Virus record (IMG/VR): IMGVR_UViG_3300021197_000433
Location: 1 to 23,509 of that record
Length of the DNA stretch: 23,509 bases
Source of the DNA: a virus
Direction: 5' to 3' (one strand)
In this document: in pieces, positions 7,045-20,063 of the stretch
Layout: each line of letters begins with the position of its first letter
Numbering within the stretch: the stretch's first letter is position 1
The notes under the pieces: generated by a model
What the model saw: the letters and a program-made list of their open reading frames with translations, nothing else
What the model was told of the DNA's origin: nothing
Databases searched by the model: none
Translations under genes and position numbers: made by a program

Positions 7045-8835
7045 ATGGCAGATTCATTGCTAGATTTTGATTACAATACAATGATAGATAAAGCATTAGG
7101 GACGACTAATCAGCCCTTTAAAGGTCTTATTAATGACCCTAACTATGAAAGCTCTTTATTAGCAAATACATTATTAGGAGCAGGGTTAGGTTACACTGGC
7201 TCTTTATACAAAGACAAAACACTTGCTGAAAAGTTACTTTCAACTGCCTCTGGGGCTAAATCAGCAAGAACAAAAGCTATTAATGATTATGTTCAAAATA
7301 TATTAACACAGCAACAATACTCTAAAAATGTATTAGATATGACTTTAAATAGAGGAAAAATAGCTAAACAGCCTTTAGAGCTATTAAGGCTACAAGGACA
7401 ATTAGAGGAACAACCTTATGATTTGATTAAAAAACAATTTGAAGCAGAATCAGCTCCATATAAAACAGGACAAGAAAAAAATAAATTTCATGAATCTAGT
7501 TTATTTTTGCAAGGAGTTAAAGATGAAATTAAAATGTTGGAAGATAAAGGAGACTTTGCAGGAGTTAATTTTATAAAAGCAAATCCTAAAGAATACTTTA
7601 AAAAATTATCAGAAAGAGATTATAGAACACAGCCTATGCCAGATGGATATAATGCTGCTGCAAAATCTATTGGATTAGACCCAAATGATAGGGCTAATTG
7701 GAGTCAGCAAGATTGGGTTGATTTAGATACTTTAGTAAAAGCTCCAGATTCTCAAGCAGCACAAAAAACAAATTTAGCAACTCAAGAAGCAAATGTAAAA
7801 AATCCTAGAGGAATACCACTTCAAAGAATTGTAAGTAGAGATGAGCATAGACAGCAAATAATTAATAGAAGAAATAGAAAAAAAACAATGCCTAAAGATT
7901 ACACTAACACTGGAGGTGTGACTACTTCAGATGGCATTGTAAATGTTTCTGAAGAAAAAAATGCAAAAGAATTTGAAAATAATACTGTCTTTGATTCTAC
8001 AAATCTTGAATATTATGTTCCTAGCCAAAAAGAATTAAGACAAGGAGTTGTTAAAAAAGGTACAAATAAAAAGTTTCCAGAAGGAGCTGTATTTACACCT
8101 ACAGGAATTAATTACACTGAAGATGAATGGAACAACATGGGCAGTGCTTTTAAATTTGCTTTGAGACCAACAAGAAAGCCAGAAAAAGCAACCGATTTAG
8201 AAATAAAAACGATTGAAAATGCCGAAAACGCAGGTAATCAAAAATCATATTTATTTACTCAAATAGACAGGCGACAACAAGTAGTTAAAGAAATATTATC
8301 TAAACCACAATTTTTAAAAGATTTGGCTTCTGTAGGTGGTAGAGCTATTACTAACCTTAATTTAGGTAGTTATGGGTTTACTTCTGATGTTCAAGATATT
8401 AAAAACTTATTTGATTTAGTTAAAAATCAAAGTTTTGTTGCAGAGATTCAAGATATGAGAGCTAACAATGAAACTGGTGGTGCTGTAGGTAATGTATCTG
8501 ATAGGGAAGTAGCTATGTTTCAAAGTATTGCAGCCGCCCTACAAAATAGCGGTTCTGCTGAATTTATGTACACTCAATTATCTAATCTATATAACAACAG
8601 TACAGATGTACTTCGTAGAAACAAAAAAGTTTATACTGAATTATATGGAGAATCTTATGCTGAAAAATTTGGTTTAAACGAATTTAATGTTGAAGATTAC
8701 GGAAAAGTTCCTAATTACCAAGATGCACTAAAACAGGTAGGTTTTGAAGCATTTTCAGATAGAAAAAACACCAGATTACTTGAAGGTGCTGCTGCAAAAA
8801 GATATGACAAAATTCAACAAATATTAGATAGGTAA
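7045..8835 (+). CDS. Large candidate internal virion protein (596 aa)
   Basis: Begins with a good ribosome binding site (AAGGAG, 8 bases before ATG). The 596-residue product is hydrophilic and mostly helical in appearance, with many Lys, Asn, Gln and Glu, a charged central region (residues about 150-330) and no membrane segment or catalytic motif I can identify. Size, position after two Ala/Gly-rich proteins and before another 600-residue protein match the ejection-protein block of short-tailed phages. No transglycosylase motif is seen. Family unknown. Confidence 0.65.
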   Translation: MADSLLDFDYNTMIDKALGTTNQPFKGLINDPNYESSLLANTLLGAGLGYTGSLYKDKTLAEKLLSTASGAKSARTKAINDYVQNILTQQQYSKNVLDMTLNRGKIAKQPLELLRLQGQLEEQPYDLIKKQFEAESAPYKTGQEKNKFHESSLFLQGVKDEIKMLEDKGDFAGVNFIKANPKEYFKKLSERDYRTQPMPDGYNAAAKSIGLDPNDRANWSQQDWVDLDTLVKAPDSQAAQKTNLATQEANVKNPRGIPLQRIVSRDEHRQQIINRRNRKKTMPKDYTNTGGVTTSDGIVNVSEEKNAKEFENNTVFDSTNLEYYVPSQKELRQGVVKKGTNKKFPEGAVFTPTGINYTEDEWNNMGSAFKFALRPTRKPEKATDLEIKTIENAENAGNQKSYLFTQIDRRQQVVKEILSKPQFLKDLASVGGRAITNLNLGSYGFTSDVQDIKNLFDLVKNQSFVAEIQDMRANNETGGAVGNVSDREVAMFQSIAAALQNSGSAEFMYTQLSNLYNNSTDVLRRNKKVYTELYGESYAEKFGLNEFNVEDYGKVPNYQDALKQVGFEAFSDRKNTRLLEGAAAKRYDKIQQILDR

Positions 8836-8839
8836 ATAA

Positions 8840-10660
8840 ATGGCTGAAAAATATAACATTGATGTAGTCCAAGAAGAAAAAACTGTAGGCGATTGGTTAA
8901 TAGCTAATAAAAATATGCTGGATTCTGATAACCCTCAAGATGTAAAAGACTTTAATGATATTAGAGAATATTATAAAGATTTACAAGGTTATTACGCTAC
9001 TCCTGAAGGATTTGCTAAAACAGCACTACCTGCCGCAGCAGGTGAAATTGGAACTGTTGCAGAAATGGCTTGGAAAGCAGCCCAAAACCCTGTTGATTCA
9101 GCAAGAAATTTAGTTGGTGGTGTGTTTGATATAGCAACTACTGCCGCAACTAATCTACTTCCAAAAGATTTAGTAGATAGTTTATATTCGTATGAAGATG
9201 ACCCAGATTCCATACAGTATAAAATGAATGAATATTTTAAAACTCCATTTAAAGTGCCTTATTTTGGAGAAGCAGATTTGTCTCCTATTCTTGCAACCCA
9301 GCCTAGAGAAAAGTATGAAGAAATGGGTGGATTAATAGCAGAAGATGTTTCAAATACTTATGACAAATTATCTTCTCCTGACAGTGCTGCTAAATTAATT
9401 GCAAATAATCCATTAGAAACAGCATTAAATGCAAGTGGGATTGGAAGTCTTTTAAAATACCCTATTAAAAAAGCTGGATTACTAGACAGTGATGCTGGTA
9501 AAGTTATTGATAATATTACAGACCAGTCACCTACCTCTTTAATATCAGGAATACCACAAGTATTAAAGAACAGAAAAAACAGAAAAGGTGATGAGATGGC
9601 TGCTCAAAGAGTAGAAGCTGATACTAAAATTAAAAATGGTATTAATGCAGGTTATGTATTACCGCCAAGTGCTTATCAAGGCACAGGAGCTTCTGCATCA
9701 AAAGTAGTTGGTGGCTTACCTTTGGGTATTAAAAAAGGAGTAACTGATACAGCGATATTAAGAAACCAAGAAACATCTAATAAATTAGCTAGAAAGTATC
9801 TTAAAATACCTCCTAACACACCATTAGAAGAAGCAATGGATATTATTAAAGCAAGAAGTGCTCCTGCCTATGAAGCTATTGGAAAACTAAAAGGAAAAAC
9901 TCTTACTAAAACAGTTGATGTTCCAGAAACTTATATTGTAAAACAAAAGCAAAGAGGTGGTGGTACTAGAGATGTAGAAAGAACAAGGACTAACAAACAA
10001 ACAAGAAAACAAGTTATACATAGAGATGGTGCTGATATATTAAAAGATTTAAAAGCATCAAGAGATAGACAAACAGCACTATACAAATCAGGAAAATTTG
10101 ATGAAGCTATTGACCAAAAAGTAATTTCTCAATCATTTGAAAATGAAATAACAAAATTAGCTAGATTTAATGGAAACAAAGCTGTTATTAACAATTTAAA
10201 AGCTGCAAGAAAAGATTATGCTAGAGGATATAGTGTTGACCCTTATGTTCAAGATGGAAAAATAAATGTAATTGCTTTTGGTAAGGGAAATAAAAAAACA
10301 CCATTAACTGGTGAAGGCAAAATAATGAAAGAATTTGCTGACATAGAAATTAACCATCCTTCATTAATAAAACCAAAGGCAGACACAGGAAATATGTCTG
10401 CATTAGATACTTATGCTTTAGCAGGACTAGCAGTAGCCGATTTGTCAACTGCTGGTGGTGTACTTTCAGCAGTTAAAACAATCCCCTCATTATTATTAAG
10501 TAACGCATCTCAACAAAAATTCCTTGACCCTAAATATGGAGCAGGTGGTTTATTAAGTACATTAGGCAACACTACTGCCGTAAGAAACTCTGTTCTTTAT
10601 CCTACTCTTTTAGAACAATCTGGAATAAAAGATATTGAATATATGGGAGAAAATCAATAA
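8840..10660 (+). CDS. Large candidate internal virion protein (606 aa)
   Basis: A 606-residue protein with an N-terminal acidic helical region, an Ala-rich amphipathic part near residues 55-110 (ALPAAAGEIGTVAEMAWKAA and following), a highly basic middle (RKNRKGDEMAAQR, KQRGGGTRDVERTRTNKQTR) and a hydrophobic stretch near residues 525-555 (ALAGLAVADLSTAGGVLSAV). This mixture of basic and membrane-compatible segments fits a DNA-ejection protein. No enzyme motif is evident. It is the last large virion gene before the lysis block, and its stop overlaps the next start (TAATG). Confidence 0.65.
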   Translation: MAEKYNIDVVQEEKTVGDWLIANKNMLDSDNPQDVKDFNDIREYYKDLQGYYATPEGFAKTALPAAAGEIGTVAEMAWKAAQNPVDSARNLVGGVFDIATTAATNLLPKDLVDSLYSYEDDPDSIQYKMNEYFKTPFKVPYFGEADLSPILATQPREKYEEMGGLIAEDVSNTYDKLSSPDSAAKLIANNPLETALNASGIGSLLKYPIKKAGLLDSDAGKVIDNITDQSPTSLISGIPQVLKNRKNRKGDEMAAQRVEADTKIKNGINAGYVLPPSAYQGTGASASKVVGGLPLGIKKGVTDTAILRNQETSNKLARKYLKIPPNTPLEEAMDIIKARSAPAYEAIGKLKGKTLTKTVDVPETYIVKQKQRGGGTRDVERTRTNKQTRKQVIHRDGADILKDLKASRDRQTALYKSGKFDEAIDQKVISQSFENEITKLARFNGNKAVINNLKAARKDYARGYSVDPYVQDGKINVIAFGKGNKKTPLTGEGKIMKEFADIEINHPSLIKPKADTGNMSALDTYALAGLAVADLSTAGGVLSAVKTIPSLLLSNASQQKFLDPKYGAGGLLSTLGNTTAVRNSVLYPTLLEQSGIKDIEYMGENQ

Positions 10661-10863
10661 TGCCTGATATTAACCCACAAGAATTTGGAAGAATGAAAGA
10701 GCAGATAGAGAATCTACAGAAAAGCCAAGATGAACTTTCAAGAGATATGAAAGAAATGTTAGCACTAGCTAATCAAGGAAAGGGTGGTTTCTGGGCAGGT
10801 ATGGCTATTGCTGCATTTATATCCTCATTAGTTACTATTGTGTTTAAACAATGGATAAACTAA
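10660..10863 (+). CDS. Coiled-coil plus membrane-anchor protein of the lysis block
   Basis: A 67-residue protein. Residues 8-40 form a charged coiled coil (FGRMKEQIENLQKSQDELSR), followed by a single hydrophobic segment (FWAGMAIAAFISSLVTIVF, about residues 43-61) and a short basic/polar tail. This layout resembles hemolysin XhlA-type or accessory holin proteins. It overlaps the upstream gene by TAATG and the next small gene by 13 bases, so it is part of a coupled lysis cassette. The C-terminal codons contain GTTTAAAC at 10842-10849. Confidence 0.65.
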   Translation: MPDINPQEFGRMKEQIENLQKSQDELSRDMKEMLALANQGKGGFWAGMAIAAFISSLVTIVFKQWIN

Positions 10864-10967
10864 AAAAAATACTGTTTAAACCTATTGTTCTTGGGTTAGG
10901 TTTATTAGCTGTATTACCTATTACACCTATTGCACTTTGTTTACTATATGGATGGATTGAATCATGA
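10851..10967 (+). CDS. 38-residue membrane peptide of the lysis block
   Basis: ATG 10851 overlaps the end of the previous gene in another frame. The product begins with a basic segment (MDKLKKILFKP) and continues as one hydrophobic helix (IVLGLGLLAVLPITPIALCL) before a short tail. A basic start plus one transmembrane helix would suit a small holin-like or anti-holin peptide. The stop overlaps the next ATG (ATGA). The gene is too short for coding statistics; tight overlaps on both sides support it. GTTTAAAC at 10874-10881 lies inside it. Confidence 0.55.
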   Translation: MDKLKKILFKPIVLGLGLLAVLPITPIALCLLYGWIES

Positions 10968-11356
10968 TACAAGCACTGTTACCACTAATTGGAAATGTCA
11001 TAGATAGAGTTGTTCCTGACAAGAACGCTAATGAAAAAGCAAAGAGAGAAATAGAGAAATCTCTTACTGACAACGCTAACAAACTTTTACTAGCACAAAC
11101 AGAGATTAACAAAGTAGAAGCTGGACACAGGTCATTGTTTGTTGCAGGATGGCGACCCATGATAGGTTGGTCATGTGCCTTTGGTGTGTTTTGGCTTTTT
11201 GTAGGACATCCTTTTGCAGTTTACCTAGATGGGTTAGATGGGGTAACAACTCCTATTCCTACTATTGACAATGAGATTCTATTAGAATTAACTTTTGCTT
11301 TACTCGGAATGTCTGGATTGCGTACTTTTGAAAAGCTAAAAGGCATTGCTACATGA
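10964..11356 (+). CDS. Holin of the GTA 3TM type
   Basis: A 130-residue protein matching the three-transmembrane holin family first described in gene transfer agents (PF11351): an amphipathic N-terminal helix (QALLPLIGNVIDRVV), a charged helical linker, then the hallmark VAGWRPMIGWSCAFGVFWLF membrane segment (about residues 60-80), a second membrane stretch, and the C-terminal LLGMSGLRTFEKLKGI. Holins of this type permeabilise the inner membrane so that the endolysin reaches the cell wall. The endolysin gene follows with a 4-base overlap, which supports the role. Confidence 0.85.
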   Translation: MIQALLPLIGNVIDRVVPDKNANEKAKREIEKSLTDNANKLLLAQTEINKVEAGHRSLFVAGWRPMIGWSCAFGVFWLFVGHPFAVYLDGLDGVTTPIPTIDNEILLELTFALLGMSGLRTFEKLKGIAT

Positions 11357-11796
11357 TAAAGGCATCTCCTAATTTTACTATAGAAGAATTAACCTTTAGC
11401 GAGACAGCAACAAGAAAAGATATAGATAACACACCATCTGACGAGGTGTTAGATAATCTATTAATAACAGCATGGAGCATGGAAAATGTTAGAGAACTAC
11501 TTAATAATAATCCTATACTTATTAGCAGTGGCTATCGTTGTTTGGAGCTTAATACATTACTCGGCAGTAAGCCAACTTCGGCACACACTAGAGGACTGGC
11601 TTGCGATTTTACTTGCCCAAAGTTCGGTGACCCTGATGACATTGTGGATGCTATTTTTAGGTCTGATATTCTTTATGACCAGATTATTCTGGAGTTTGAT
11701 AAATGGGTTCATATCGCTTTTCCAGAGAATGGAAAGAGTGCTAGGAAAAAAGCGTTAATCATTAACAAGAAAGGGACAATGATTTACTCACAATGA
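11353..11796 (+). CDS. M15-family peptidase endolysin
   Basis: A 147-residue protein with the peptidase M15 (D-Ala-D-Ala carboxypeptidase-like, PF08291) signature: SSGYRC at about residues 58-63, SAHTRGLACDF at 76-86 and WVHIAF at 119-123. The zinc ligands would be His78, Asp85 and His120. N-terminal residues NFTIEELTFSETATRKDIDN are also typical of this family. It would cleave peptide stems of peptidoglycan in the periplasm at the end of infection. It has no signal peptide, so release depends on the holin just upstream. Confidence 0.9.
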   Translation: MIKASPNFTIEELTFSETATRKDIDNTPSDEVLDNLLITAWSMENVRELLNNNPILISSGYRCLELNTLLGSKPTSAHTRGLACDFTCPKFGDPDDIVDAIFRSDILYDQIILEFDKWVHIAFPENGKSARKKALIINKKGTMIYSQ

Positions 11797-11957
11797 TGGA
11801 TATATTACTTATAGCCAAACACATGATGGACAAAACGATAGATGATATTGATATTGTTTATGGTGAGAACACAATGACTATATTTTTAGATGATGGGTCT
11901 AGTGTTGAGATGATTGTTGATTCTATACATTTAAACGCAACGGAATATGACTCGTAA
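11793..11957 (+). CDS. Small protein downstream of the endolysin, unknown
   Basis: A 54-residue reading frame starting at ATG 11793 (ATGATG; the second ATG at 11796 is equally possible), overlapping the endolysin stop. The product is acidic with alternating hydrophobic residues (DDIDIVYGENTMTIFLDDGS) and looks like a small beta-rich cytoplasmic protein. No membrane segment is present, so it is not an obvious spanin. Support comes from the coupled overlaps at both ends. Confidence 0.5.
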   Translation: MMDILLIAKHMMDKTIDDIDIVYGENTMTIFLDDGSSVEMIVDSIHLNATEYDS

Positions 11958-12051
11958 AACAAAAAACCTATTAAATACATTAGCATCTTTAGCAACAGTT
12001 ATTTTGGTATTGTTGTTAATATACTTCATATTATTACTATTTCTTGTTTAA
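11947..12051 (+). CDS. 34-residue membrane peptide ending the late operon
   Basis: ATG 11947 overlaps the previous gene in another frame. The product has a basic start (MTRKTKNLLN) and then a single hydrophobic helix (ATVILVLLLIYFILLLFLV) reaching to the C-terminus. Topology and place suggest a lysis-associated peptide. Its last codon and stop, GTT TAA, lie in the GTTTAAAC octamer at 12046-12053, the first of eight stop codons in this window contributed by that octamer. Confidence 0.5.
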   Translation: MTRKTKNLLNTLASLATVILVLLLIYFILLLFLV

Positions 12052-12120
12052 ACGCTATATTTTGGCTTCGTCAGAGGCTCGTGGTGAGCTTTAAATAGAT
12101 TGCTTAAGGGGTAGCCCTAC
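12052..12120 (+). other. Convergent junction between late and leftward operons
   Basis: Sixty-nine bases separate the converging transcription units. A weak hairpin (AGGCTC, loop GTGGT, GAGCTT, with one G-T pair) lies near 12074-12091 but has no T-run on either strand, so I do not call a rho-independent terminator. The sequence TGTTTAAACGCT, an extended form of the octamer found at four other places, overlaps its left edge. Confidence 0.3.
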
Positions 12121-12618
12121 CTACTTTTGTAGTTCAAAATGCTTAATAGTTTTAATATCTTTAAATAATACTTTAGTTACTTTATCTTTTCTTTTGTATC
12201 TTGTATGAACAAGATAAACACCTTTCCCTTTTTTGTAATTATTTTCTTTTAATTTTGATAAAGTTAAATTTAATAACTCAATTCTATTTACAACCATCCA
12301 AGTATCTTCTCTTTCAAAAACAATATAATCAGAATTGCCTCTTATCCAGCCATCTTTCCCATTTACATTTTTACCTTCTACCCAAACTGATTCCATTACA
12401 CCGACACTTGGGTCAGAGCTATGGTCTAACCTTTTAGTAGTTTTAACATCAAATTTGCTAACATTGCCTATCTCTTTTAAAAGCCCCATTACATCCCAAT
12501 GCTCATAAATGTCTTGGTTTTTGTTTGAATAAACAATATTTGTTATATGTTTTTCTGCAAATCTTTTTTCAGCAGATTTACCATAATCAAAACAATATTT
12601 AATTTTGTCTTTAAGCAT
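12121..12618 (-). CDS. Putative PD-(D/E)XK-fold nuclease-like protein
   Basis: Start taken at ATG 12618 (165 residues); a TTG six codons upstream is in frame but less likely. The stop of the upstream gene overlaps this start. The pattern GKSAEKRFAEKH, then IYEHWDVMG and SKFDVKTTKR gives E-x(n)-D-x(n)-DxK spacing like the catalytic core of restriction-endonuclease-fold nucleases, and NVNGKDGWIRGNSDYIVFER resembles a conserved segment of marine phage proteins of this type. Possible roles are resolvase, packaging-related or host-DNA degradation. Fold assignment is inference. Confidence 0.5.
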   Translation of the reverse strand: MLKDKIKYCFDYGKSAEKRFAEKHITNIVYSNKNQDIYEHWDVMGLLKEIGNVSKFDVKTTKRLDHSSDPSVGVMESVWVEGKNVNGKDGWIRGNSDYIVFEREDTWMVVNRIELLNLTLSKLKENNYKKGKGVYLVHTRYKRKDKVTKVLFKDIKTIKHFELQK

Positions 12619-12937
12619 ATATTTTTTTCCCAGCAATAGTTAAAAGATTGTCTATAGCTAACTCCAAATCTCTTTCGTAATACATAGGCTTGTTACCACC
12701 TAGAAATCTGTAATTAATAGCTTGTTTCTGTTGCTTTGGTAAATCGTCTATAATAGAATCCACAATCTTTACATTGTCCATATCAGATTCAGATACCATA
12801 TCCTCAAACACTTCAGAAGTAGACTCTCCACCCGTAGAGAAATAAGATGTCTTGTTAGGGTAACCTAACCTATGGCTATCTTGTTTCATCCACCTTGCCC
12901 AATCTTCTAATATGTTCATGAGCCTAGCTATTCTCAT
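12611..12937 (-). CDS. Possible Q-like late antiterminator / transcription regulator
   Basis: A 108-residue protein with an N-terminal helix LMNILEDWARWMKQDSHRLG followed by YPNKTSYFSTGG and a C-terminal part with SIIDDLPKQQKQAINYRFLG and ELAIDNLLTIAGKKI. The pattern (LxxWARWxxxDxHRLGYP, then VDxxIxxLPxxxxxAIxxxYL) is reminiscent of phage antitermination Q / ArpU-RinA type regulators. Being near the end of the leftward operon, beside the late genes, would suit a regulator of late transcription. No biochemical residue is decisive. Confidence 0.45.
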   Translation of the reverse strand: MRIARLMNILEDWARWMKQDSHRLGYPNKTSYFSTGGESTSEVFEDMVSESDMDNVKIVDSIIDDLPKQQKQAINYRFLGGNKPMYYERDLELAIDNLLTIAGKKIYA

Positions 12938-13170
12938 TACTTACTTAATCCGCCCAGTATTGTCCCCCAGTTAGTTGCTTTTCTTTTCTCTTGCGGTGTC
13001 ATAGGTTTTGGCATTACAAATCCGTATTCCTCTTGTATTCTATCTAATGTTCCTGCATAAACACCTGCATAAGCCGAAATTCTACTTCTACTAGCATCAG
13101 GATTTTTTTCTATAAACTCTTTTGCTCTCGTTCCAAATTCATCATACTTTTCTTTTGTGTATCTACTCAT
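12937..13170 (-). CDS. Small basic protein, possibly helix-turn-helix
   Basis: A 77-residue basic protein. Residues about 24-48 (DASRSRISAYAGVYAGTLDR) resemble a helix-turn-helix with SRSRIS...AGTLDRI as recognition region, followed by a Pro-rich basic tail (VMPKPMTPQEKRKATNWG). It overlaps its neighbours at both ends by a few bases. It could be a DNA-binding regulator or a small terminase-like adaptor; I cannot choose. Confidence 0.55.
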   Translation of the reverse strand: MSRYTKEKYDEFGTRAKEFIEKNPDASRSRISAYAGVYAGTLDRIQEEYGFVMPKPMTPQEKRKATNWGTILGGLSK

Positions 13171-13490
13171 GATATATCCACCTCTCTACATACCCACTTG
13201 TTATTCTTCTTATGCCACCCTTGAACAAGTAGCACCCAATTTGCTTCTCTTAAATGATGGATAGCATCACTATCCTCCATTTTCTTTACCCTTGCACTAA
13301 TGTTACTGTAGCTAGTGACTTGGATTCCTACTGTGTTGCCTTTACTGTCTATAGCTAGTAAATCTATTATCCCAAATAAGTCTTGTCGTATCTTGGCAAA
13401 TGCGTTCCACCTTTCTACAATAGCAACTAAAGGGTAATCACCACTATCCCGTAGCTTCTTCAGAGTCCTTTGTGTTGGGCTTATCGCCAT
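13167..13490 (-). CDS. Possible degenerate PD-(D/E)XK nuclease-fold protein
   Basis: A 107-residue protein: TQRTLKKLRDSGDYPLVAIV, then ERWNAFAKIRQDLFGIIDLL and GNTVGIQVTSYSNISARVKK. The order E...D (in GIIDLLAI)...strand with QVT is like archaeal Holliday-junction resolvase or VRR-NUC folds, but the ExK position reads Q-V-T, so a catalytic residue may be replaced. The C-terminal LREANWVLLVQGWHKKNNKW adds a further strand-helix. Likely nucleic-acid related; activity uncertain. The gene overlaps both neighbours. Confidence 0.5.
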   Translation of the reverse strand: MAISPTQRTLKKLRDSGDYPLVAIVERWNAFAKIRQDLFGIIDLLAIDSKGNTVGIQVTSYSNISARVKKMEDSDAIHHLREANWVLLVQGWHKKNNKWVCREVDIS

Positions 13491-13596
13491 TTTTCTCCTC
13501 CTCTCTAGCTACATTGCCTTTAAATATTCTGTTCCAATTTTCTTCTAATTCTTCATCAGTAATATCTTGCTTTCTTTTTCCACTACCTTTACCCAT
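13444..13596 (-). CDS. 50-residue charged protein, unknown
   Basis: Reads ATG 13596 to TAG 13444, preceded by a strong AAGGAGG eight bases before the start. The product begins MGKGSGKRKQDITDEELEEN and contains NWNRIFKG, a signature (MGKGxxRR..eE...NWdrIF) shared by short proteins of many phages, and ends in a charged tail. It overlaps the following gene by 47 bases, which is large but common in this operon. Function unknown. Confidence 0.6.
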   Translation of the reverse strand: MGKGSGKRKQDITDEELEENWNRIFKGNVAREEEKNGDKPNTKDSEEATG

Positions 13597-13870
13597 CACA
13601 ATCCCTCCTTACCTTACATACTTCATGTTTATCATAATATCTTACGCTGTTGTTTTTCATGTCTATGTTTTTAATTTGTGTATCTTTTGGTAGGTGTATA
13701 TATTCTTTGTTTAAACACTTGTATTCCATTTCAACTTTGTTTGGGTCTGGATAATGTAAGCTGACATACAAAACCGCCTCCGAGCAACTGTTAAAGTTTC
13801 CAACATATTCCCAATCTGTTAAAGGCTCTGGTGCTAAATTAATTACCATTACAAATGCAAACTCAATCAT
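13589..13870 (-). CDS. 93-residue protein with hydrophobic N-terminus, unknown
   Basis: The product begins MIEFAFVMVINLAPEPL, a short hydrophobic segment that might be a weak signal or membrane contact, and carries Cys29, Cys52, Cys85 and Cys91, so disulphides or metal binding are possible. Its ATG overlaps the stop of the MT-A70 gene (ATGA). The first ten codons are duplicated 619 bases upstream (see the 32-bp repeat): the upstream copy has kept the ribosome binding site that this gene probably once used. Family not recognised. GTTTAAAC lies at 13709-13716. Confidence 0.65.
   Translation of the reverse strand: MIEFAFVMVINLAPEPLTDWEYVGNFNSCSEAVLYVSLHYPDPNKVEMEYKCLNKEYIHLPKDTQIKNIDMKNNSVRYYDKHEVCKVRRDCDG
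13839..13870. repeat. 32-bp direct repeat, copy 1 (start of 93-residue gene)
   Basis: Identical to 14458-14489 over 32 bases; the copies differ immediately beyond both ends. On the minus strand the repeat begins with ATGATTGAGTTTGC. The two copies bracket the methyltransferase gene. Confidence 0.9.
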
Positions 13871-14427
13871 ACTTCATTCCCCCATATATCCCAACCTTCT
13901 GTTTCTTGTCTAGCAAACAATTCTACTCTTGGTAAATTGCCACATAGTTCTACAATTTTATCTCTAGCCACAGCTGGTTTTTTTGAGTGTTTGTCGATTG
14001 GTTCATAGATAATTTGATGAACACTTTTAGATACTCTTTTTGGCTTACCTTTGGTAGCTAATAAACATATTTCGTTATTTGCTCTTGTCCAATAACCTAA
14101 ACCCCAAAAGAAACTATCTTTGTTTTTGTTCTTTTTTACCCAACTAAAACCACAAGTCTTGTAGGTAAAACCCCATTCCTTTATTGTTTGTAACCCTTCT
14201 TGTAACAAAGGATAAGTAACCCATAAAAAAAGAACACAGTCATCATCTGCAATATCTTGCACTGGTAAATCATATATATCTTGAATACTCATACAGCTAT
14301 ATTCTTTTTGAGGGTCACGGATATTCAGGTCTTGTGAAGTCCCTTCTGTCCTTTTTTTAGACTGATATTTAAACTGCCAAGCTGGGTCAGCATAAATAAT
14401 GTTGTACTTTTTATTAGGTAGTTCCAT
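13867..14427 (-). CDS. MT-A70 family adenine-N6 DNA methyltransferase
   Basis: Start taken at ATG 14427 (186 residues), which overlaps the stop of a 20-codon leader ORF as TAATG and has GGGAG 9 bases upstream; ATG 14448 is in frame but lacks a ribosome binding site. NIIYADPAW (residues 9-17) is the D-P-P-W catalytic/SAM motif of MT-A70 with Ala at the third place. LFLWVTYPLLQEGLQTIKEW, KTCGFSWVKKNK, the NNEICLLATKGKPKR segment and KPAVARDKIVELCG, LPRVELFARQETEGWDIWGNE complete the family pattern (PF05063). It likely methylates adenine in phage DNA, for protection from restriction or for regulation. Confidence 0.9.
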   Translation of the reverse strand: MELPNKKYNIIYADPAWQFKYQSKKRTEGTSQDLNIRDPQKEYSCMSIQDIYDLPVQDIADDDCVLFLWVTYPLLQEGLQTIKEWGFTYKTCGFSWVKKNKNKDSFFWGLGYWTRANNEICLLATKGKPKRVSKSVHQIIYEPIDKHSKKPAVARDKIVELCGNLPRVELFARQETEGWDIWGNEV

Positions 14428-14489
14428 TATACAATTCTCCCAATCCATTTGCCATTTTTAATTACCATTACAAATGCAAACTCAATCAT
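14427..14489 (-). pseudogene. 20-codon leader ORF: duplicated 5' end of the 93-residue gene
   Basis: ATG 14489 has a very good ribosome binding site (AAGGAG, 7 bases upstream). The ORF encodes MIEFAFVMVIKNGKWIGRIV and stops in TAATG at the MT-A70 start. Its first ten residues are identical to those of the gene at 13589-13870. It is best read as the orphaned start of that gene, left behind when the methyltransferase gene came in, and now serving as a coupling leader. Confidence 0.6.
14458..14489. repeat. 32-bp direct repeat, copy 2 (leader ORF upstream of MT-A70)
   Basis: Second copy of the repeat at 13839-13870, 619 bases away and in the same orientation. This copy retains the ribosome binding site; copy 1 is preceded directly by the end of the methyltransferase gene. 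Confidence 0.9.
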
Positions 14490-14492
14490 GAT

Positions 14493-14657
14493 TTACTCCT
14501 TAAAGTTTCCTTTAGTTATAATCTTTCCTGTTAGTTCATGTGCAATATTAAAATCTTTCTTATTATAATTCATTATAAATTTGTAACCCTCATATATAAA
14601 TTGATGTTCTTTCCATATTTCTTTATTCTTTTTCAGTGCTTCCTTACCCTTTGCCAT
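14493..14657 (-). CDS. 54-residue basic protein, unknown
   Basis: Start taken at ATG 14657 (MAKGKEALKKNKEIWKEHQF) because GGAG lies 8 bases upstream; ATG 14678 is in frame without a good site. The protein is Lys-rich with aromatic residues (IYEGYKFIMNYNKKDFNIA) and no recognised motif. It overlaps the end of the preceding zinc-binding protein gene. Confidence 0.55.
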   Translation of the reverse strand: MAKGKEALKKNKEIWKEHQFIYEGYKFIMNYNKKDFNIAHELTGKIITKGNFKE

Positions 14658-14811
14658 CTTTCTCACTCCAATATACATTTAGTATTGTTTCACACTTTGG
14701 ACAACTATACTGACTCCATATTAAGTATTGACTATTATCTTCTTCATCATTATCCCAATCGTTTCCCCATATCATTTCTACATCTTTACATTTAGGACAA
14801 CTGATATTCAT
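14644..14811 (-). CDS. Small protein with two CPxC zinc knuckles
   Basis: Start taken at ATG 14811 (55 residues), overlapping the upstream stop by ATGA and preceded by AAGGAG. The protein has CPKC at residues 5-8 and a second CPKC near residue 37, about 30 residues apart, which is the spacing of a zinc ribbon. An acidic stretch (GNDWDNDEEDNSQY) lies between. Probably nucleic-acid or protein binding; no family recognised. Confidence 0.65.
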   Translation of the reverse strand: MNISCPKCKDVEMIWGNDWDNDEEDNSQYLIWSQYSCPKCETILNVYWSEKDGKG

Positions 14812-14966
14812 TTCTTTTTCTCCTTGCAAAAACCTTTAGAATTAAACTCTCCCATTTCTGTGTTTAAACAACACCACCATTGCCCATCAGAATATATCTT
14901 TGCTTTCTTTTTACATGAATGGCAAACAGGATTATTTGGTATCTTTATTGTTTTTGCAGATTCCAT
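14808..14966 (-). CDS. 52-residue zinc-finger-like protein, paralogue of its upstream neighbour
   Basis: ATG 14966 has AAGGA 6 bases upstream. The product contains NPVCHSCKKKAKIYSDGQWW, then CC, and a final GFCK, giving a C-H-x-C ... W-x-C ... C pattern. The same pattern (VCHKC...DKKWYC...GICK) is present in the gene immediately upstream, so the two look like a tandem duplication that has diverged. Zinc binding is likely. GTTTAAAC is at 14862-14869. Function unknown. Confidence 0.6.
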   Translation of the reverse strand: MESAKTIKIPNNPVCHSCKKKAKIYSDGQWWCCLNTEMGEFNSKGFCKEKKK

Positions 14967-15117
14967 GATTTTCCTTTATGTCATACCAATTAAAATAACA
15001 ATACCATTTCTTGTCACTATCCATAAACATGGCATCACGACCACACTTATGGCAAACAAACTTATCTCCATATAAAAATACTTCTTGTTTATTAATCTTC
15101 GTCATGCAATTCGTCAT
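14932..15117 (-). CDS. Zinc-finger-like protein, paralogue of its downstream neighbour
   Basis: Up to 61 residues from ATG 15117; ATG 15105 gives 57. Neither has a clear ribosome binding site, and both overlap the DUF3310 gene end, so translational coupling is likely. The body reads KFVCHKCGRDAMFMDSDKKW, then YCYFNW and HGICKNNKD, a C-H-x-C ... W-x-C ... C arrangement matching the next gene. Function unknown. Confidence 0.6.
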   Translation of the reverse strand: MTNCMTKINKQEVFLYGDKFVCHKCGRDAMFMDSDKKWYCYFNWYDIKENHGICKNNKDTK

Positions 15118-15388
15118 CTATCCATTCATCTTGCTTGGCTTTAACTTCTAAAACTTTTAATTCTGTTTGATGAACTTTAATCATTTGTTCAAGATACCAT
15201 ATTGCTTTTTTACAGTCATCTATCTTGTCAGTTAATTTTTCTGACTTCAATCCTTCTCTACTAATATACTTTAGTGCATTGCCTTTAATGTAGCCATAGA
15301 ACTCATCCTTGCTCATCTTTGCTTGCATATATTCTATTGTTTCTATACCCCCTTTCTTATAATGGTCAGGGTTTATCGTATCACTCAT
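15092..15388 (-). CDS. DUF3310 protein (T7 gp1.7-type domain)
   Basis: A 98-residue protein with the DUF3310 signature: INPDHYKKGGIETIEYMQAK, then FYGYIKGNALKYISR and KIDDCKKAIWYLEQMI. The same domain occurs in T7 gp1.7, reported as a nucleotide kinase, but here only the domain is present, so kinase activity is uncertain. It is the first gene of the second leftward group, with AAGGAG 7 bases before ATG 15388. It probably acts in nucleotide metabolism during DNA replication. Confidence 0.85.
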   Translation of the reverse strand: MSDTINPDHYKKGGIETIEYMQAKMSKDEFYGYIKGNALKYISREGLKSEKLTDKIDDCKKAIWYLEQMIKVHQTELKVLEVKAKQDEWIDDELHDED

Positions 15389-15493
15389 ATTTACTCCTTA
15401 TAATCATTAGGTAAAACTCATACATTGTTCACTCTGTTTAAACTTACTTTGCAATTAAAATAAAGCCTTGATTAACCAACAAGGAACTTAATT
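15389..15493. promoter_or_regulatory. Divergent intergenic region between DUF3310 group and pqqA
   Basis: This is the only place in the leftward block where genes point away from each other. It must hold start signals for the leftward DUF3310 group and the rightward pqqA. GTTTAAAC lies centrally at 15436-15443. TAAAAT at 15456-15461 is a candidate rightward -10 box, but there is no convincing -35, so promoters are not resolved. AAGGA at 15481-15485 is the pqqA ribosome binding site. Confidence 0.45.
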
Positions 15494-15565
15494 ATGTGGA
15501 CAAAACCATCAGCTACTGAAATGAGATTTGGCTTTGAAGTTACAATGTATGTAATGAACAAGTAA
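15494..15565 (+). CDS. pqqA: PqqA, precursor peptide of pyrroloquinoline quinone
   Basis: A 23-codon gene starting at ATG 15494 with AAGGA 8 bases upstream. The product starts MWTKPSATEMR and continues FGFEVTMYVMNK. Bacterial PqqA peptides are 22-29 residues with the same W-x-K-P start, a central R-x-G and the invariant E-V-T-x-Y; Glu15 and Tyr19 here are the residues that PqqE joins by a C-C bond and that become PQQ. Everything needed for a substrate is present, but no pqqB, C, D or E is in this window. It points rightward inside a leftward gene block and lies directly against the terminator of the upstream leftward group. It would feed a host PQQ pathway. Alternative explanations (chance ORF) are unlikely given length, motif order and ribosome site. 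Confidence 0.9.
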   Translation: MWTKPSATEMRFGFEVTMYVMNK

Positions 15566-15587
15566 AAAAAGGGGGCGATTAGCCCCC
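15564..15587 (-). terminator. Rho-independent terminator after the SSB gene
   Basis: On the minus strand GGGGGC (15587-15582), loop TAATC, GCCCCC (15576-15571) is followed by seven T (15570-15564). It lies 13 bases past the SSB stop and ends the first leftward group. On the plus strand the hairpin follows pqqA directly but has no T-run, so it would be a weaker stop in that direction. Confidence 0.9.
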
Positions 15588-15599
15588 AATCCCCCCTAG

Positions 15600-15902
15600 T
15601 TAAAACGGCACATCTTCTGACACTTGGTCAAAACCTTCTTTAGCTTGTGGAGCAGTTGTATTACTACTACCCTCATCTTTAAAGAACACTTTAGTATTAC
15701 CTAGTATAGCCCCTCTCGTTCCTGCTTCTCTTTCTTCTTGAGAAACAGATTGAGTAATCATACCATTGTTATCATATTGGTCTTTCTCATCCAAATTAAC
15801 AAATGCGGTTATGTTTAAATAAGTGCCTTTCTTACCATCAATAAGTTTAGCCTTATCAATCTTTGTTACATCAATACTTGCTGAAATTCCTACTGTTGCC
15901 AT
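15600..15902 (-). CDS. ssb: Single-stranded DNA-binding protein
   Basis: A 100-residue protein with an OB-fold-like beta pattern (VGISASIDVTKIDKAKLIDG, then GTYLNITAFVNLDEKDQYDN, and GAILGNTKVFFKDE), a flexible middle and the acidic C-terminal tip QVSEDVPF. That tip, ending in D-x-P-F, is the protein-interaction tail of bacterial and phage SSBs. It is shorter than E. coli SSB. It follows exonuclease and annealing-protein genes, with which it would act in recombination and replication. Start overlaps the exonuclease stop. Confidence 0.8.
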   Translation of the reverse strand: MATVGISASIDVTKIDKAKLIDGKKGTYLNITAFVNLDEKDQYDNNGMITQSVSQEEREAGTRGAILGNTKVFFKDEGSSNTTAPQAKEGFDQVSEDVPF

Positions 15903-16522
15903 TAGTTATTCTCCTTAATAAATTTAACTGAATCCATGACTTCTACTGCAAACTCATGAATATCTCTTTCTAGACGACCTATTAAATCATCATCTCTTTC
16001 TACTCTTTTGATAAAGAGCTTATAGTCATCAGGGAAGTCAGGGTGATAACAAACAAAGTCACACCACTTTCTACCCGTGCAAGCCATCTGCCACATCATT
16101 TGATGAATATATCGTTTCGGAATTACTGCGTTCTGCAATATCTCCGTATGTGTTGTTGCTTGGGGGCATTTTATTTCTATCAATCCCTCATCTCCTACCA
16201 TTCCATCAGGGCTAGCCCCTGACATCATGACTGTTGGGTGGTCTACAAAACCTTCCTCTTTAACATCTACATCTTTAAGTAGCCCTAGCTTTGCTATGTA
16301 AGCGTTTCTAGCCTCATCTTCATACTCAACCCCATGTCTCATAGCTTCGTTCATAAATATCTTAACGGGCTTACCTGTCAGTTGCTCGGTAATGAGTTGT
16401 GTTCTATACTTTCTTTTGTATTGGCTCTCACCATTCTTAACTTTAACAATCACATTATCTACATTACTAGCAGTGACCTTACCGACCCTTGCTTGAAACC
16501 ACTCTGGTGACCTTTGTTCCAT
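15902..16522 (-). CDS. YqaJ / lambda-type 5'-3' exonuclease
   Basis: A 206-residue protein of the YqaJ viral recombinase family (PF09588). It opens with RSPEWFQARVGKVTASNV, has MRHGVEYEDEARN near residue 65, and the catalytic SGASPDGMVG...LIEIKCP, where Asp106, Glu116 and Lys118 form the PD-(D/E)XK centre; Gln141 and Gln145 in HQMMWQM are also conserved. It resects double-stranded ends to give 3' single strands for the annealing protein encoded just upstream. The start follows SD-like GGA and the octamer GTTTAAAC, whose TAA ends the previous gene. Confidence 0.92.
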   Translation of the reverse strand: MEQRSPEWFQARVGKVTASNVDNVIVKVKNGESQYKRKYRTQLITEQLTGKPVKIFMNEAMRHGVEYEDEARNAYIAKLGLLKDVDVKEEGFVDHPTVMMSGASPDGMVGDEGLIEIKCPQATTHTEILQNAVIPKRYIHQMMWQMACTGRKWCDFVCYHPDFPDDYKLFIKRVERDDDLIGRLERDIHEFAVEVMDSVKFIKENN

Positions 16523-16524
16523 GT

Positions 16525-17022
16525 TTAAACATCCTTTTTAATTGTTTCTATAAATGGCATACATAACTTTCTGTCTGCCTCGTTTAAACCATTAAAGTAT
16601 TGTCTAGCCGTAGCTACACCTTGCTCTTTATATATGTTCTCTATGCGTTCCAGAACATCTCCTTCTGGCAAGTCCTCACCTTGATAGATATACAAACCAA
16701 TACCATGTAATGATATAGCTTTTGCTAAACATCTTTGCATAGCAGTATTGAGTTGCATAGCATTAGGATTTTTAATAGCTTGGTTCTTAAAATCTATTAC
16801 AGGTAATTGTGAAGTGACATTTTTACCAAATGCTTGAACTGTGCAGAACACCATCATACTGCCATCAGGTAATGTCATAGGGTCTGCATAACCCCATGTT
16901 GCTGACTCGTCATGTTGCAATAAAGTATCTACTGCCCATGCCCATGATAGATAAGTAAACTTACCTTTCTTCTCTGTATATTTGCTAACATCTATCTTTC
17001 TTAACTCTGCGTATTTACTCAT
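16525..17022 (-). CDS. Single-strand annealing protein, Sak3/DUF1071 type
   Basis: A 165-residue protein: DVSKYTEKKGKFTYLSWAWA near the N-terminus, then VDTLLQHDESATWGYADP and MVFCTVQAFGKNVTSQLPVI, and NAMQLNTAMQRCLAKAISLH followed by GIGLYIYQGEDLP. This is the DUF1071 pattern (PF06378), grouped with Rad52-like Sak3 phage recombinases. It would anneal complementary strands exposed by the exonuclease. Its ATG overlaps the preceding stop (ATGA), and its own stop lies inside GTTTAAAC. Confidence 0.85.
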   Translation of the reverse strand: MSKYAELRKIDVSKYTEKKGKFTYLSWAWAVDTLLQHDESATWGYADPMTLPDGSMMVFCTVQAFGKNVTSQLPVIDFKNQAIKNPNAMQLNTAMQRCLAKAISLHGIGLYIYQGEDLPEGDVLERIENIYKEQGVATARQYFNGLNEADRKLCMPFIETIKKDV

Positions 17023-17177
17023 GACTTACCCCCAAATATTTCATTTATGATTTGTTGTTTGTAGGCAAGTTGAGACATCTGTTCTATCTCTTGATAGTCT
17101 TTAGCCATCTCTTGTTGTAATTGGTCTTGTGATTCTACTTGCTGAACTGCAAGTGATAATTCTGTTGATTTACTCAT
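17019..17177 (-). CDS. 52-residue Gln-rich coiled-coil protein
   Basis: ATG 17177 is preceded by AAGGAG 8 bases upstream. The product (MSKSTELSLAVQQVESQDQL, then QQEMAKDYQEIEQMSQLAYK) is rich in Gln and Glu and looks like one long helix or coiled coil, ending IFGGKS. The stop overlaps the annealing-protein start. It may be an accessory subunit of the recombination or replication complex; family unknown. Confidence 0.6.
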   Translation of the reverse strand: MSKSTELSLAVQQVESQDQLQQEMAKDYQEIEQMSQLAYKQQIINEIFGGKS

Positions 17178-17207
17178 GTGTTTCTCCTTTCTTGTTAAAA
17201 GTTAATA

Positions 17208-17360
17208 TTACTTTACACTGTTAATTTTATTTGTCAAACTTTTATTTACTTTGTCCCAATTTTTAGATTTATAAACTTTTCCATCTTTGCTTGTTGCTCT
17301 ATATTCAACATCTTTAAAACTTTGTTTAAACGCTTTAATAAACTCATTAGCAGTTAGCAT
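17208..17360 (-). CDS. 50-residue basic protein, unknown
   Basis: ATG 17360 lies inside the last codons of the helicase gene in another frame, so translation is probably coupled. The product MLTANEFIKAFKQSFKDVEY then RATSKDGKVYKSKNWDKVNK is strongly basic, with a helical start and a Lys-rich tail; DNA binding is plausible. GTTTAAAC at 17324-17331 (within the longer TGTTTAAACGCT) encodes F-K here. Confidence 0.55.
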   Translation of the reverse strand: MLTANEFIKAFKQSFKDVEYRATSKDGKVYKSKNWDKVNKSLTNKINSVK

Positions 17361-18268
17361 GGTCTCTCCGAAAATCTCTGTTTAAACTTGTTAAACCAAA
17401 AAGAAAATGTTCCCTCAAATGGGTGGTTTCTTTGTTTCTGAACCATTAAGTATGAAGTGCAAGGATTATCTCCTTCCTCTAACTCGCCTAACATCTTTGC
17501 CTGTTCTATATCTTTTCTTCTATGCAAACAGATAATATTGTCTGTTAGGTTTCTAATATGGCTACTCCCTAAAATATGTGAAGCGTCAGGTATTACTGTT
17601 TCATCTGCTAATTTTTTAGTATGAGCAACCAAGAAAACATGAATATTTAAGTCTCTAGCAAGGCAACTAATTTTATTGATAAACTTTTTCTGACTTGCGT
17701 AATCATCTTCTGCAATGCTATCTACTTTCATTAGACTGTCTATAACAAAAACATCACAATCATGAACATTTTTCCCGAAATGTAGACTAGCGACTAAATC
17801 ATCTTCAGATGTTGTTCCTTGTGCATTAAATAACCACAACTTATTTTTGTATTTTTCACAAAACTCCTCAATATGTTGGTCATTCGCTTCTCTGATTCCT
17901 GTTTGTTGAATCATTTTTGCTATCTGTATTACAGGTCTCATCTCCATACTTGCTACTAAAACATTTGTATAGGTCATTAAGTTAAGTAATACCTGTGACA
18001 AGAAAGTAGTTTTTCCTGACCCTGAACTGCCTGTCAAGATTGTTACCTCTCCTCGCCTTACAAGAAAATTACTATCCTCATCAGTTTTTTGAAAACCTAA
18101 AGAAAACCCAGAGTTTTTCTCATTACGATAATAATTTTTTACATCATCTACTAAATTATCTGTCGTTTTTACTTTAAAATCTGTTTCTTCTTCATAAAAA
18201 CCACCCTCTTGCAAAGTTTTTCTGTTAATAGTCAACTGCTCTACAATGCTACCGACATCAGTTTTCAT
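17354..18268 (-). CDS. Replicative DNA helicase, RecA/DnaB-fold, no primase domain
   Basis: A 304-residue protein with a Walker A loop GSSGSGKT at residues 80-87 (Lys86), VLVASMEM at 103-110, a Walker B-like VFVIDSL with Asp177, VFLVAHTKK at 211-219 and the arginine-finger-side SSHIRNLTDNIICLHRRK. This is the C-terminal helicase domain of DnaB/T7 gp4 proteins. The N-terminal 70 residues show no zinc or TOPRIM primase motif, so priming must come from another protein or the host. It overlaps the O-like gene by ATGA, which suggests initiator plus helicase acting together. GTTTAAAC occurs at 17380-17387. Confidence 0.88.
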   Translation of the reverse strand: MKTDVGSIVEQLTINRKTLQEGGFYEEETDFKVKTTDNLVDDVKNYYRNEKNSGFSLGFQKTDEDSNFLVRRGEVTILTGSSGSGKTTFLSQVLLNLMTYTNVLVASMEMRPVIQIAKMIQQTGIREANDQHIEEFCEKYKNKLWLFNAQGTTSEDDLVASLHFGKNVHDCDVFVIDSLMKVDSIAEDDYASQKKFINKISCLARDLNIHVFLVAHTKKLADETVIPDASHILGSSHIRNLTDNIICLHRRKDIEQAKMLGELEEGDNPCTSYLMVQKQRNHPFEGTFSFWFNKFKQRFSERPC

Positions 18269-18858
18269 AAAGCACCTCTAATTTGTGTTGGTGATTTAGG
18301 ATTATCATTCCACCTTTCTTGATTAATAATAACTTCAGGGCTAGGATTAAAACCCTCTAACCACTCTCTCGTTTTTTTCATGGTAGCAGTCCAAGAAATA
18401 ATTTTTTTTGAAATGTCGTCTAATTTTTTTGATTTCCATTTTTCTAAACAACCTTTCTTATTTACTTTTCTTTTATCAGGTAATGACTCCCACCATTTTT
18501 CAAAATGTTCAGCAGTGCCTTTTACAACTTCAGATTTTAAAACTGTCAGCATTAATTCTTTTTTTAGGTCTTGCTCTGTTACTTCATAGAACCAATTTTT
18601 TGCGTTTAAACTAGCGTATATTTTTTCTAGTTTTTTCTCATCTTGTCTTAAACGAAAAGCACAAGATTTTAGGTCAGGCAATACACCATTAAACTGCGAG
18701 GCTAAATCCCAAGCCTCTCTTAAAAACAGTCTTTCTGTTTCTGACAATTCCATGTAAGTAACATCATTTAAAATATCGCCACCATACATTTTATACCAAC
18801 TCATTTTATTTTTATGTTTGTAATGTTGGAACTTGTCCCAATTTTTTATTTTAAACAT
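18265..18858 (-). CDS. O-like replication initiation / helicase-loading protein
   Basis: A 197-residue protein. The first 75 residues (WYKMYGGDILNDVTYMELSE, then TERLFLREAWDLAS and a winged-helix-like SCAFRLRQDEKKLEKI) resemble the N-terminal winged helix of phage replication organisers. The C-terminal part has FEKWWESLPDKRKVNKKGCL followed by EKWKSKK and NPSPEVIINQERWND, the pattern of helicase-recruiting ends of phage O/replisome organiser proteins. Adjacent, overlapping helicase gene supports this. GTTTAAAC is at 18604-18611. Confidence 0.65.
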   Translation of the reverse strand: MFKIKNWDKFQHYKHKNKMSWYKMYGGDILNDVTYMELSETERLFLREAWDLASQFNGVLPDLKSCAFRLRQDEKKLEKIYASLNAKNWFYEVTEQDLKKELMLTVLKSEVVKGTAEHFEKWWESLPDKRKVNKKGCLEKWKSKKLDDISKKIISWTATMKKTREWLEGFNPSPEVIINQERWNDNPKSPTQIRGAL

Positions 18859-18876
18859 TATTTTTCCTTTTTATGT

Positions 18877-19044
18877 TTAAACAGATTTAGTTAAATACTC
18901 CTTAATTTCATACTGTCTTAATTTTGGTATCTGTTGATTGATAAACCATTTTGAAACTGCCTGTCTACTGATTTGTAATTTGTCTGCAATGTCAGATTGA
19001 TTTCTAAAATTTTCTAGCAGATATTCAAATGTAATTTTTTCCAT
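18877..19044 (-). CDS. Cro-like helix-turn-helix repressor
   Basis: A 55-residue protein read from ATG 19044 (AAGGAG 8 bases upstream) to a TAA that lies inside GTTTAAAC 18875-18882. NQSDIADKLQISRQAVSKWF (residues 15-34) is a canonical helix-turn-helix with S-x-x-A-x-x-L-x-x-x-x-x-x-V-S-x-W, as in Cro and YdaS-type regulators; INQQIPKLRQYEIKEYL follows. It is the first leftward gene and borders the divergent control region, so it likely regulates both directions. No CI partner is visible in the window. Confidence 0.85.
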   Translation of the reverse strand: MEKITFEYLLENFRNQSDIADKLQISRQAVSKWFINQQIPKLRQYEIKEYLTKSV

Positions 19045-19075
19045 TTATTACTCCTTGTTAATTGATTGAGATGTC

Positions 19076-19104
19076 ATCTTATGCTGAACAAAAAAGATTG
19101 TCAA
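19076..19104 (-). promoter_or_regulatory. Candidate leftward promoter
   Basis: On the minus strand TTGACA (19104-19099), 17-base spacer, TAAGAT (19081-19076). The -35 is a perfect match and the -10 matches four of six positions. It lies 32 bases before the Cro-like start codon. Confidence 0.5.
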
Positions 19105-19180
19105 GTAAAGTCTGAAAAATAAACATCATCATCACCCATATATATATTCTTTTCTAATCTTATCTTATCTGTTATATACA

Positions 19181-19211
19181 TTGTCTAGAGGTTGTCTAGA
19201 GCCTCTCTAGA
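19181..19211. promoter_or_regulatory. Operator-like cluster: three TCTAGA boxes at 11-base spacing
   Basis: TCTAGA begins at 19184, 19195 and 19206. The first two units read TTGTCTAGAG and the third CTCTCTAGAG. One helical turn between palindromic cores would place three proteins on the same DNA face. The location between the two divergent promoters makes it the best candidate operator for the Cro-like protein. Confidence 0.6.
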
Positions 19212-19264
19212 GTAAGTCTGTTTAAACTTATAAATCAATAACTTAAAAATAATAAATAAAAAGG

Positions 19265-19294
19265 TTGACATTTATTTATGTATTATGTCATTAT
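19265..19294 (+). promoter_or_regulatory. Candidate rightward early promoter
   Basis: TTGACA at 19265-19270 with CATTAT at 19289-19294 (spacer 18). The -35 is perfect; the -10 matches four of six positions. Transcription would start just before the first rightward gene at 19324. Confidence 0.5.
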
Positions 19295-19323
19295 GTCTTT
19301 ACATTAATAAAAGGAGAGCAAAA

Positions 19324-19494
19324 ATGAGAGATTATGAGTATGAAGTGATTGGTTACTTGTTAGCTAAAGTTGACCAAGAAACAGGTGAGGAAGTATTGAA
19401 CAGGCATGGAGATGTAAAGTTGTTTAAACACCTAGACAATACGATTGATGTTCTAGGATTTTCAGAAGAAACAGTAGAGGAGATAAAACAATGA
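19324..19494 (+). CDS. First rightward early gene, 56 residues, unknown
   Basis: Start at ATG 19324, with AAAAGGAG 8 bases upstream, preferred over the in-frame ATG at 19285, which lies in the promoter region. The acidic product (MRDYEYEVIGYLLAKVDQET, then GDVKLFKHLDNTIDVLGFSE) has no recognised domain. It carries GTTTAAAC at 19422-19429. It overlaps the next gene by 4 bases. As the first product of the rightward promoter it is a candidate early takeover protein. Confidence 0.7.
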   Translation: MRDYEYEVIGYLLAKVDQETGEEVLNRHGDVKLFKHLDNTIDVLGFSEETVEEIKQ

Positions 19495-19727
19495 ATAGCG
19501 AAGAAATATGGACAGAAAAAGTAGCAAAGTATTTAGTAGGCAAAAAGATTGTAGCGGTTAAATATCTACCATTAGATGAAACGACTGAATGGGGTTGGTA
19601 TAAAAGACCTTGTGAAATTCATTTAGATGATGGCACTATTATTACACCAAGTGCAGATGATGAGGGCAATGATGGTGGCTCTCTTATGACTAACAATAGA
19701 AACTTACAGTGCATACCAACATTATAG
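19491..19727 (+). CDS. 78-residue early protein, unknown
   Basis: Overlaps the previous stop (ATGA). It contains KIVAVKYLPLDETTEWGWYK, RPCEIHLDDGTIITPSADDE and GNDGGSL, a pattern of paired strands with an acidic D-D-E-G-N-D-G-G turn that recurs in short phage proteins of unknown role. The acidic cluster could bind a metal. No membrane segment. Function not recognised. Confidence 0.7.
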   Translation: MNSEEIWTEKVAKYLVGKKIVAVKYLPLDETTEWGWYKRPCEIHLDDGTIITPSADDEGNDGGSLMTNNRNLQCIPTL

Positions 19728-19737
19728 GAGAGTAAAG

Positions 19738-19878
19738 ATGAATTTAGATGAGATTTTTAAATGTATTAGTTGTAAAGAAAAGTTTGAGCATAGGTATTGT
19801 AGTGAGCATGATGTTGCATATTGTCATTCTTGCTATCAATGGATTAATGATGAACATTTATCAGAATTGGAGAATTAA
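19738..19878 (+). CDS. 46-residue zinc-binding early protein
   Basis: ATG 19738 is preceded by AGGAG 8 bases upstream. The product has C-x-x-C near residues 9-12 (FKCISCKEKF), Cys21 and His24 (YCSEH) and CHSC at 29-32, together a compact two-site zinc-finger layout. Its stop is part of TAAACATG, joining it to the next gene. It may bind nucleic acid or a host protein. Confidence 0.65.
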   Translation: MNLDEIFKCISCKEKFEHRYCSEHDVAYCHSCYQWINDEHLSELEN

Positions 19879-19880
19879 AC

Positions 19881-20063
19881 ATGAAAAATTATACACTTTA
19901 TGCAATAAGAGAGGTTGGTGAGGTAGCAGTTATCCAAGCCAATTCTAAAGACGAAGCGATTGAAAAAGTAACAAACGAAGATTGGGAGATTGACCAAGAT
20001 TTAAATTGGGAAATCACATCAGTAAAAGAAGATGGTGAATCATGGGAGAGTAAACATGAGTAA
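19881..20063 (+). CDS. 60-residue early protein, unknown
   Basis: Linked to the previous gene by TAAACATG, with GGAG in the preceding codons. The product is acidic: MKNYTLYAIREVGEVAVIQA, then NSKDEAIEKVTNEDWEIDQD. The strand-helix-strand pattern (YTLYAI...EAVIQA...KDEAIEKV) resembles small ferredoxin-like phage proteins. Function unknown. Confidence 0.65.
   Translation: MKNYTLYAIREVGEVAVIQANSKDEAIEKVTNEDWEIDQDLNWEITSVKEDGESWESKHE

Follow-up and report, generated by a model that had tools for sequence, protein, structure and literature searches.

The window, meaning the whole 23,509-base virus record analysed here, carries at 15494-15565 (plus strand) the gene pqqA, which runs from ATG to TAA and encodes the 23-residue PqqA precursor peptide MWTKPSATEMRFGFEVTMYVMNK; the assignment draws on the ORF call, profile matches and the copy in the cultured phage Venkman. 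A Shine-Dalgarno-like AAGGA (15481-15485, plus strand) lies 8 nt 5' of the ATG. Scanning for a sigma-70 promoter upstream of the gene in the window returned chance-level matches, none of them convincing, and such a promoter was rejected. pqqA is the sole plus-strand gene in this region and is flanked on both sides by minus-strand genes, namely a DUF3310 phage protein (15092-15388) and a gene for a small phage protein (15600-15902), whose positional counterpart in phage ctXG6705 is annotated as a putative SSB. Past the small protein lie a YqaJ-like viral recombinase (15902-16522, minus strand) and a Sak single-strand annealing protein (16525-17022, minus strand). Directly 3' of pqqA the terminator scan, which found 2 terminator-like sites against 0.3 expected, marks a GC-rich hairpin (15571-15587, minus strand). 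The T-run of this hairpin lies on the minus strand, so that it resembles a terminator for the recombination genes that converge on pqqA.

The peptide scores about twice the curated cut-offs of both PqqA profiles. Pfam PF08042 matches residues 1-19 across all 19 profile positions (E 3.2e-11, 43.3 bits, cut-off 21.1), and NCBIfam TIGR02107 gives E 2.3e-10 (40 bits, cut-off 20); PHROGs has no family that matches the window PqqA. The E-x3-Y spacing of the cross-link is present in the form of Glu15 (codon 15536-15538, plus strand) and Tyr19 (codon 15548-15550, plus strand), neither of which varies in related phages. From established PQQ biochemistry, we take these two to be the residues that PqqE joins. 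The original prediction of a complete pqqA gene is confirmed by the exact open reading frame and by both profiles: the window encodes a full PqqA.

The record is 99.5-99.8% identical to Venkman, a cultured OM43 methylophage, with 99.5% identity over the first 8 kb and 99.8% over the 94% of positions 12100-20000 that aligns. Venkman encodes the window peptide with 100% identity at the same location, where its deposited annotation leaves a gap. Given an identical peptide at an identical position in a cultured phage, the gene is neither a chance reading frame nor an assembly error. When 50,697 phage records were searched by tblastn with the 23-mer, matches were found in Venkman, the metagenomic podovirus ctXG6705, the freshwater phage P19250A, MEP301, MEP401, MEP402 and four isolates of the T4-like Melnitz, and none of these records annotates PqqA. 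The gene is thus carried by nine of the nine cultured Methylophilales/Methylophilaceae phage records surfaced by the searches, a set that leaves out the taxonomy-named OM43 phages MEP431-434, HIM624-A, phiMB624-A and Venkman EXVC038S. These nine phages, marine and freshwater, fall into five groups with differing genome plans. Two records named 'Acinetobacter phage MD-2021a' (CAKLQF020000010.1 and CAKLQH020000055.1; our L007 and L008) carry bacterial pqqABCDE, resemble host chromosome and were rejected as phage evidence.

Among uncultured viruses, at least 589 stretches in IMG/VR encode a relative of the window PqqA. Reading 182 distinct phage copies gave 50 peptides, and 177 leaders fell into 98 clusters, so the gene is located in many unrelated phage contexts. 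A sample independent of the peptide was obtained by using the Venkman, MEP301 and P19250A terminases to pick longer records and then checking these for PqqA. Of these contigs of at least 30 kb, 13 of 20 have the gene (3/4 by the Venkman query, 5/7 by MEP301 and 5/9 by P19250A); pqqA is therefore common, not universal, in related phages, and its lack in the other 7 indicates that it is not essential. A ribosome site precedes all 171 phage copies inspected under a lenient pattern, and a hairpin lies within 55 nt after the stop codon in 124 of the 171, against 58 of 171 in an upstream control stretch; in 76 of those 124 hairpins, four or more of the ten bases around the stem end are T. These signals fit, and do not prove, a small, separately expressed gene.

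Phage pqqA is maintained by selection. The test set consisted of 21 distinct coding sequences from the terminase-picked contigs and the isolates, none of them selected by peptide, and gave a pN/pS of 0.135. Glu15 and Tyr19, which had been predicted to occupy the cross-link positions, are present in 21 of 21, while the synonymous sites have diverged; Trp2, Pro5 and the block from Glu9 to Tyr19 are likewise invariant, one ambiguous base aside. In the IMG/VR set, where residues 9-19 are partly fixed by the search pattern and only codons 2-8 and 20-23 were counted, pN/pS is 0.25. The low ratios and the invariant residues argue for a translated, working PqqA peptide. The phage peptide equals the host consensus in 27 of 182 copies; position 6 is Ser in Venkman and Ala in that consensus.

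The likely host background can be read from Venkman, which was isolated on OM43 strain H5P1 (PMC8163748), in agreement with the marine methylotroph anticipated from the window. In relatives of this host, such as KB13 and LSUCC strains, pqqA is present three times, with two of the copies near each other and a single full PqqE gene at a distance of about 110 kb from these two; PqqE, the enzyme searched for in these relatives, exceeds its profile cut-off, and KB13 also encodes a PQQ alcohol dehydrogenase. A PQQ-producing host, the second expectation, is borne out to this extent. Methylophilaceae more generally contain 3-12 pqqA copies with a single pqqBCDE (PMC4109929), so that the hosts, too, increase the dose of the substrate alone. 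The top OM43 transcript is xoxF, which encodes a PQQ methanol dehydrogenase (PMC5120137). PqqE is over the cut-off in none of 42 pqqA-bearing phage contigs, and the phages thus appear, as had been proposed, to carry the substrate only.

Taken together, the sequence comparisons suggest that these phages replenish the only part of the PQQ pathway that is consumed. Each cofactor molecule costs one PqqA, whereas the enzymes turn over, and PqqA is therefore the sole component that could be resupplied by gene dose or continued transcription, and the part that needs continual production. An infecting phage would produce additional PqqA, whose Glu15 and Tyr19 would be linked by the host PqqE with PqqD, and host proteases, PqqB and PqqC would complete the cofactor. 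Until lysis, the resulting PQQ would sustain the methanol dehydrogenase of XoxF type, through which energy mainly enters the hosts. We consider it probable that phage pqqA is a functional auxiliary metabolic gene resupplying a consumed precursor during infection, its expression, modification and benefit being inferred from the genomes. Several points count against this role: 7 of the 20 large terminase-picked contigs lack the gene, the window shows no convincing sigma-70 promoter before it, the OM43 hosts already hold three pqqA copies, so that PqqA need not limit PQQ, and the dehydrogenase is present in only one of 68 virus records searched, which comprise the window plus 67 others with pqqA. 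That one, the 72-kb record L859 (IMGVR_UViG_3300025120_009955), is the best supporting single case for PQQ feeding, in that about 6 kb separate its pqqA from the gene of a PQQ methanol dehydrogenase; it also contains ribonucleotide reductase, DNA ligase and other genes of phage families. The features in question are the PQQ methanol dehydrogenase at 7990-9864, a formate-dehydrogenase-like subunit at 9944-12784, pqqA at 15888 and a SoxYZ protein at 16071-16790.

It is unlikely that the peptide acts instead as a decoy or inhibitor, occupying PqqD/PqqE or otherwise blocking PQQ synthesis and thereby redirecting metabolism. PqqA binds PqqD/PqqE as a small ligand, and it is the only part that the phage supplies; however, both cross-linked positions and the residues around them are conserved, many copies are identical or nearly identical to the host peptide, which a decoy does not need, and one phage contig pairs pqqA with the PQQ dehydrogenase. 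Slightly less credible again is a purpose other than host energy, such as the release of PQQ or a different product derived from the peptide. PqqA belongs to the RiPP precursors, and a RiPP family annotated as PqqA was reported to be co-expressed near defence systems (PMC11118758), but a PqqE-type modifying enzyme exceeds the cut-off in none of the phage contigs tested, the peptides have ordinary PqqA sequence, and the hosts' top transcript is the PQQ methanol dehydrogenase (PMC5120137). That a tiny piece of host DNA hitch-hiked by chance and drifts unused in the phage is very improbable: although the gene is short, the hosts are multicopy and some related phages do without it, the selection test opposes drift, the protein being constrained while synonymous sites diverged, and ribosome sites in all copies and recurrence across many unrelated phage contexts point the same way. 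Least probable of all is that the breadth is overstated by misclassified bacterial fragments with an orphan host pqqA, a source that was rejected, despite the numerous orphan copies in Methylophilaceae and the shortness of many contigs, because nine cultured phages and 13 of 20 large terminase-picked contigs have the gene, only one of 373 viral loci matches Acinetobacter PqqB-E (L693, which matches pqqB), and terminase, portal, capsid and tail genes surround the sampled viral copies.

Beyond the type found in the window, further viral stretches encode gamma-type (82) and alpha-type (217) PqqA, which occur there as orphans. These scans were seeded by chosen PqqA sequences, and the counts describe a sample and not an enumeration. 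All seven phage peptides of gamma, alpha and other types that were scored pass TIGR02107, one of the 160 gamma/alpha loci kept matches PqqB, and the neighbours include terminase, portal, capsid, tail and RNR genes. Orphan gamma-type copies occur in very large phage records (L649, 339,794 bases; L656, 216,820; L671, 187,935). Enterobacterial-type pqqA is located near one end of several 38-42 kb contigs (L690, L694-L696, L720 and L721); the L690 copy is equipped with a strong terminator, lies close to a lambda-like tail fiber J gene and resembles a prophage moron.

The alpha-type loci share a further feature 5' of the gene. A motif, C[CU]GCGG-N-CAACC[AG], is present in 76 of 80 alpha-type phage loci (contigs L724-L803) and ends, in the copies listed, about 23-46 nt 5' of the initiation codon of pqqA; an example is located just 5' of pqqA in L740 (5945-5986). 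Aligned copies form a hairpin that is interrupted by a 2-nt bulge and by a conserved internal loop; both sides change at 8 of 10 pairs and 97.3% of cells pair, against at most 48% in slid controls. The element occurs once per record in the 11 phage records searched whole, and Rfam has no family matching it. A genome-wide scan under strict filters, which weak copies could escape, gave two weak hits, neither beside pqqA. No copy was found 5' of the pqqA genes inspected at about 50 bacterial loci, and on this ground the interpretation as a host PQQ riboswitch was rejected; its presence in Methylophilales phages was rejected as well, with zero matches in the window or its relatives. The element is a candidate cis-regulatory RNA. 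A permuted alphaproteobacterial tmRNA gene is also present just 5' of pqqA in the alpha-type contigs L726, L740, L747, L774, L782 and L795. That precursor resupply is a general strategy, with repeated origins among phages whose hosts make PQQ and with PqqA of three types, and that in the alpha type it is governed by a dedicated RNA leader absent from the sampled bacterial pqqA genes, is a tentative proposal to which we lean a little less than to its opposite.

In length, sequence and Glu-x3-Tyr core the phage peptides are like bacterial PqqA (PF08042, TIGR02107), in particular the orphan copies of Methylophilaceae, which likewise have their own ribosome site and often a 3' hairpin; one of the common phage peptides is identical to the host consensus. 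The phage copies differ from bacterial ones in lying within phage genomes and in having leaders unlike those inspected in hosts. The proposed resupply may be likened to the case of cyanophage psbA, where the phage likewise provides only the quickly consumed part of a system essential to host energy, with the difference that psbA encodes a protein subunit whereas PqqA is a peptide precursor of a cofactor.

Viral pqqA is already known as a kind of gene, and the caution over novelty that accompanied the original prediction was apt. The Lake Baikal virus VP_266, predicted to infect a methylotroph, encodes a viral PqqA together with a viral methanol dehydrogenase (Coutinho et al., 2020; PMC7678222). 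It shares with the present phages a virus-borne PqqA and the same proposed role, but represents one freshwater metagenomic population, whereas here the gene is found in cultured phages of five groups and in hundreds of contigs, of which most lack the dehydrogenase. In reservoir sediments, viral pqqA, pqqD and pqqE have been counted among the auxiliary metabolic genes of the phosphorus cycle (2026; PMC13188868); the accessible portion of that paper likewise places pqqA on viral contigs, and interprets it as phosphate solubilisation without an analysis of the gene or of methylophages. The methylophage literature searched does not report pqqA as a phage gene, and a global ocean survey of auxiliary metabolic genes does not mention PQQ. 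The recurrence in the surfaced cultured methylophages, the occurrence of further PqqA types in phages and the RNA leader all appear to be unreported in the literature searched, mostly outside subscription journals.

With a length of 23 codons, pqqA was overlooked across a whole group of sequenced phages, and other consumed precursors, such as RiPP substrates, are worth seeking in phage genomes. The covarying element before the alpha-type gene adds a new candidate regulatory RNA. Venkman with H5P1, and similar cultured pairs, permit PQQ feeding to be tested directly. Should methylotroph phages feed the PQQ pathway as a rule, viruses would partly control the oxidation of methanol in coastal waters and lakes.
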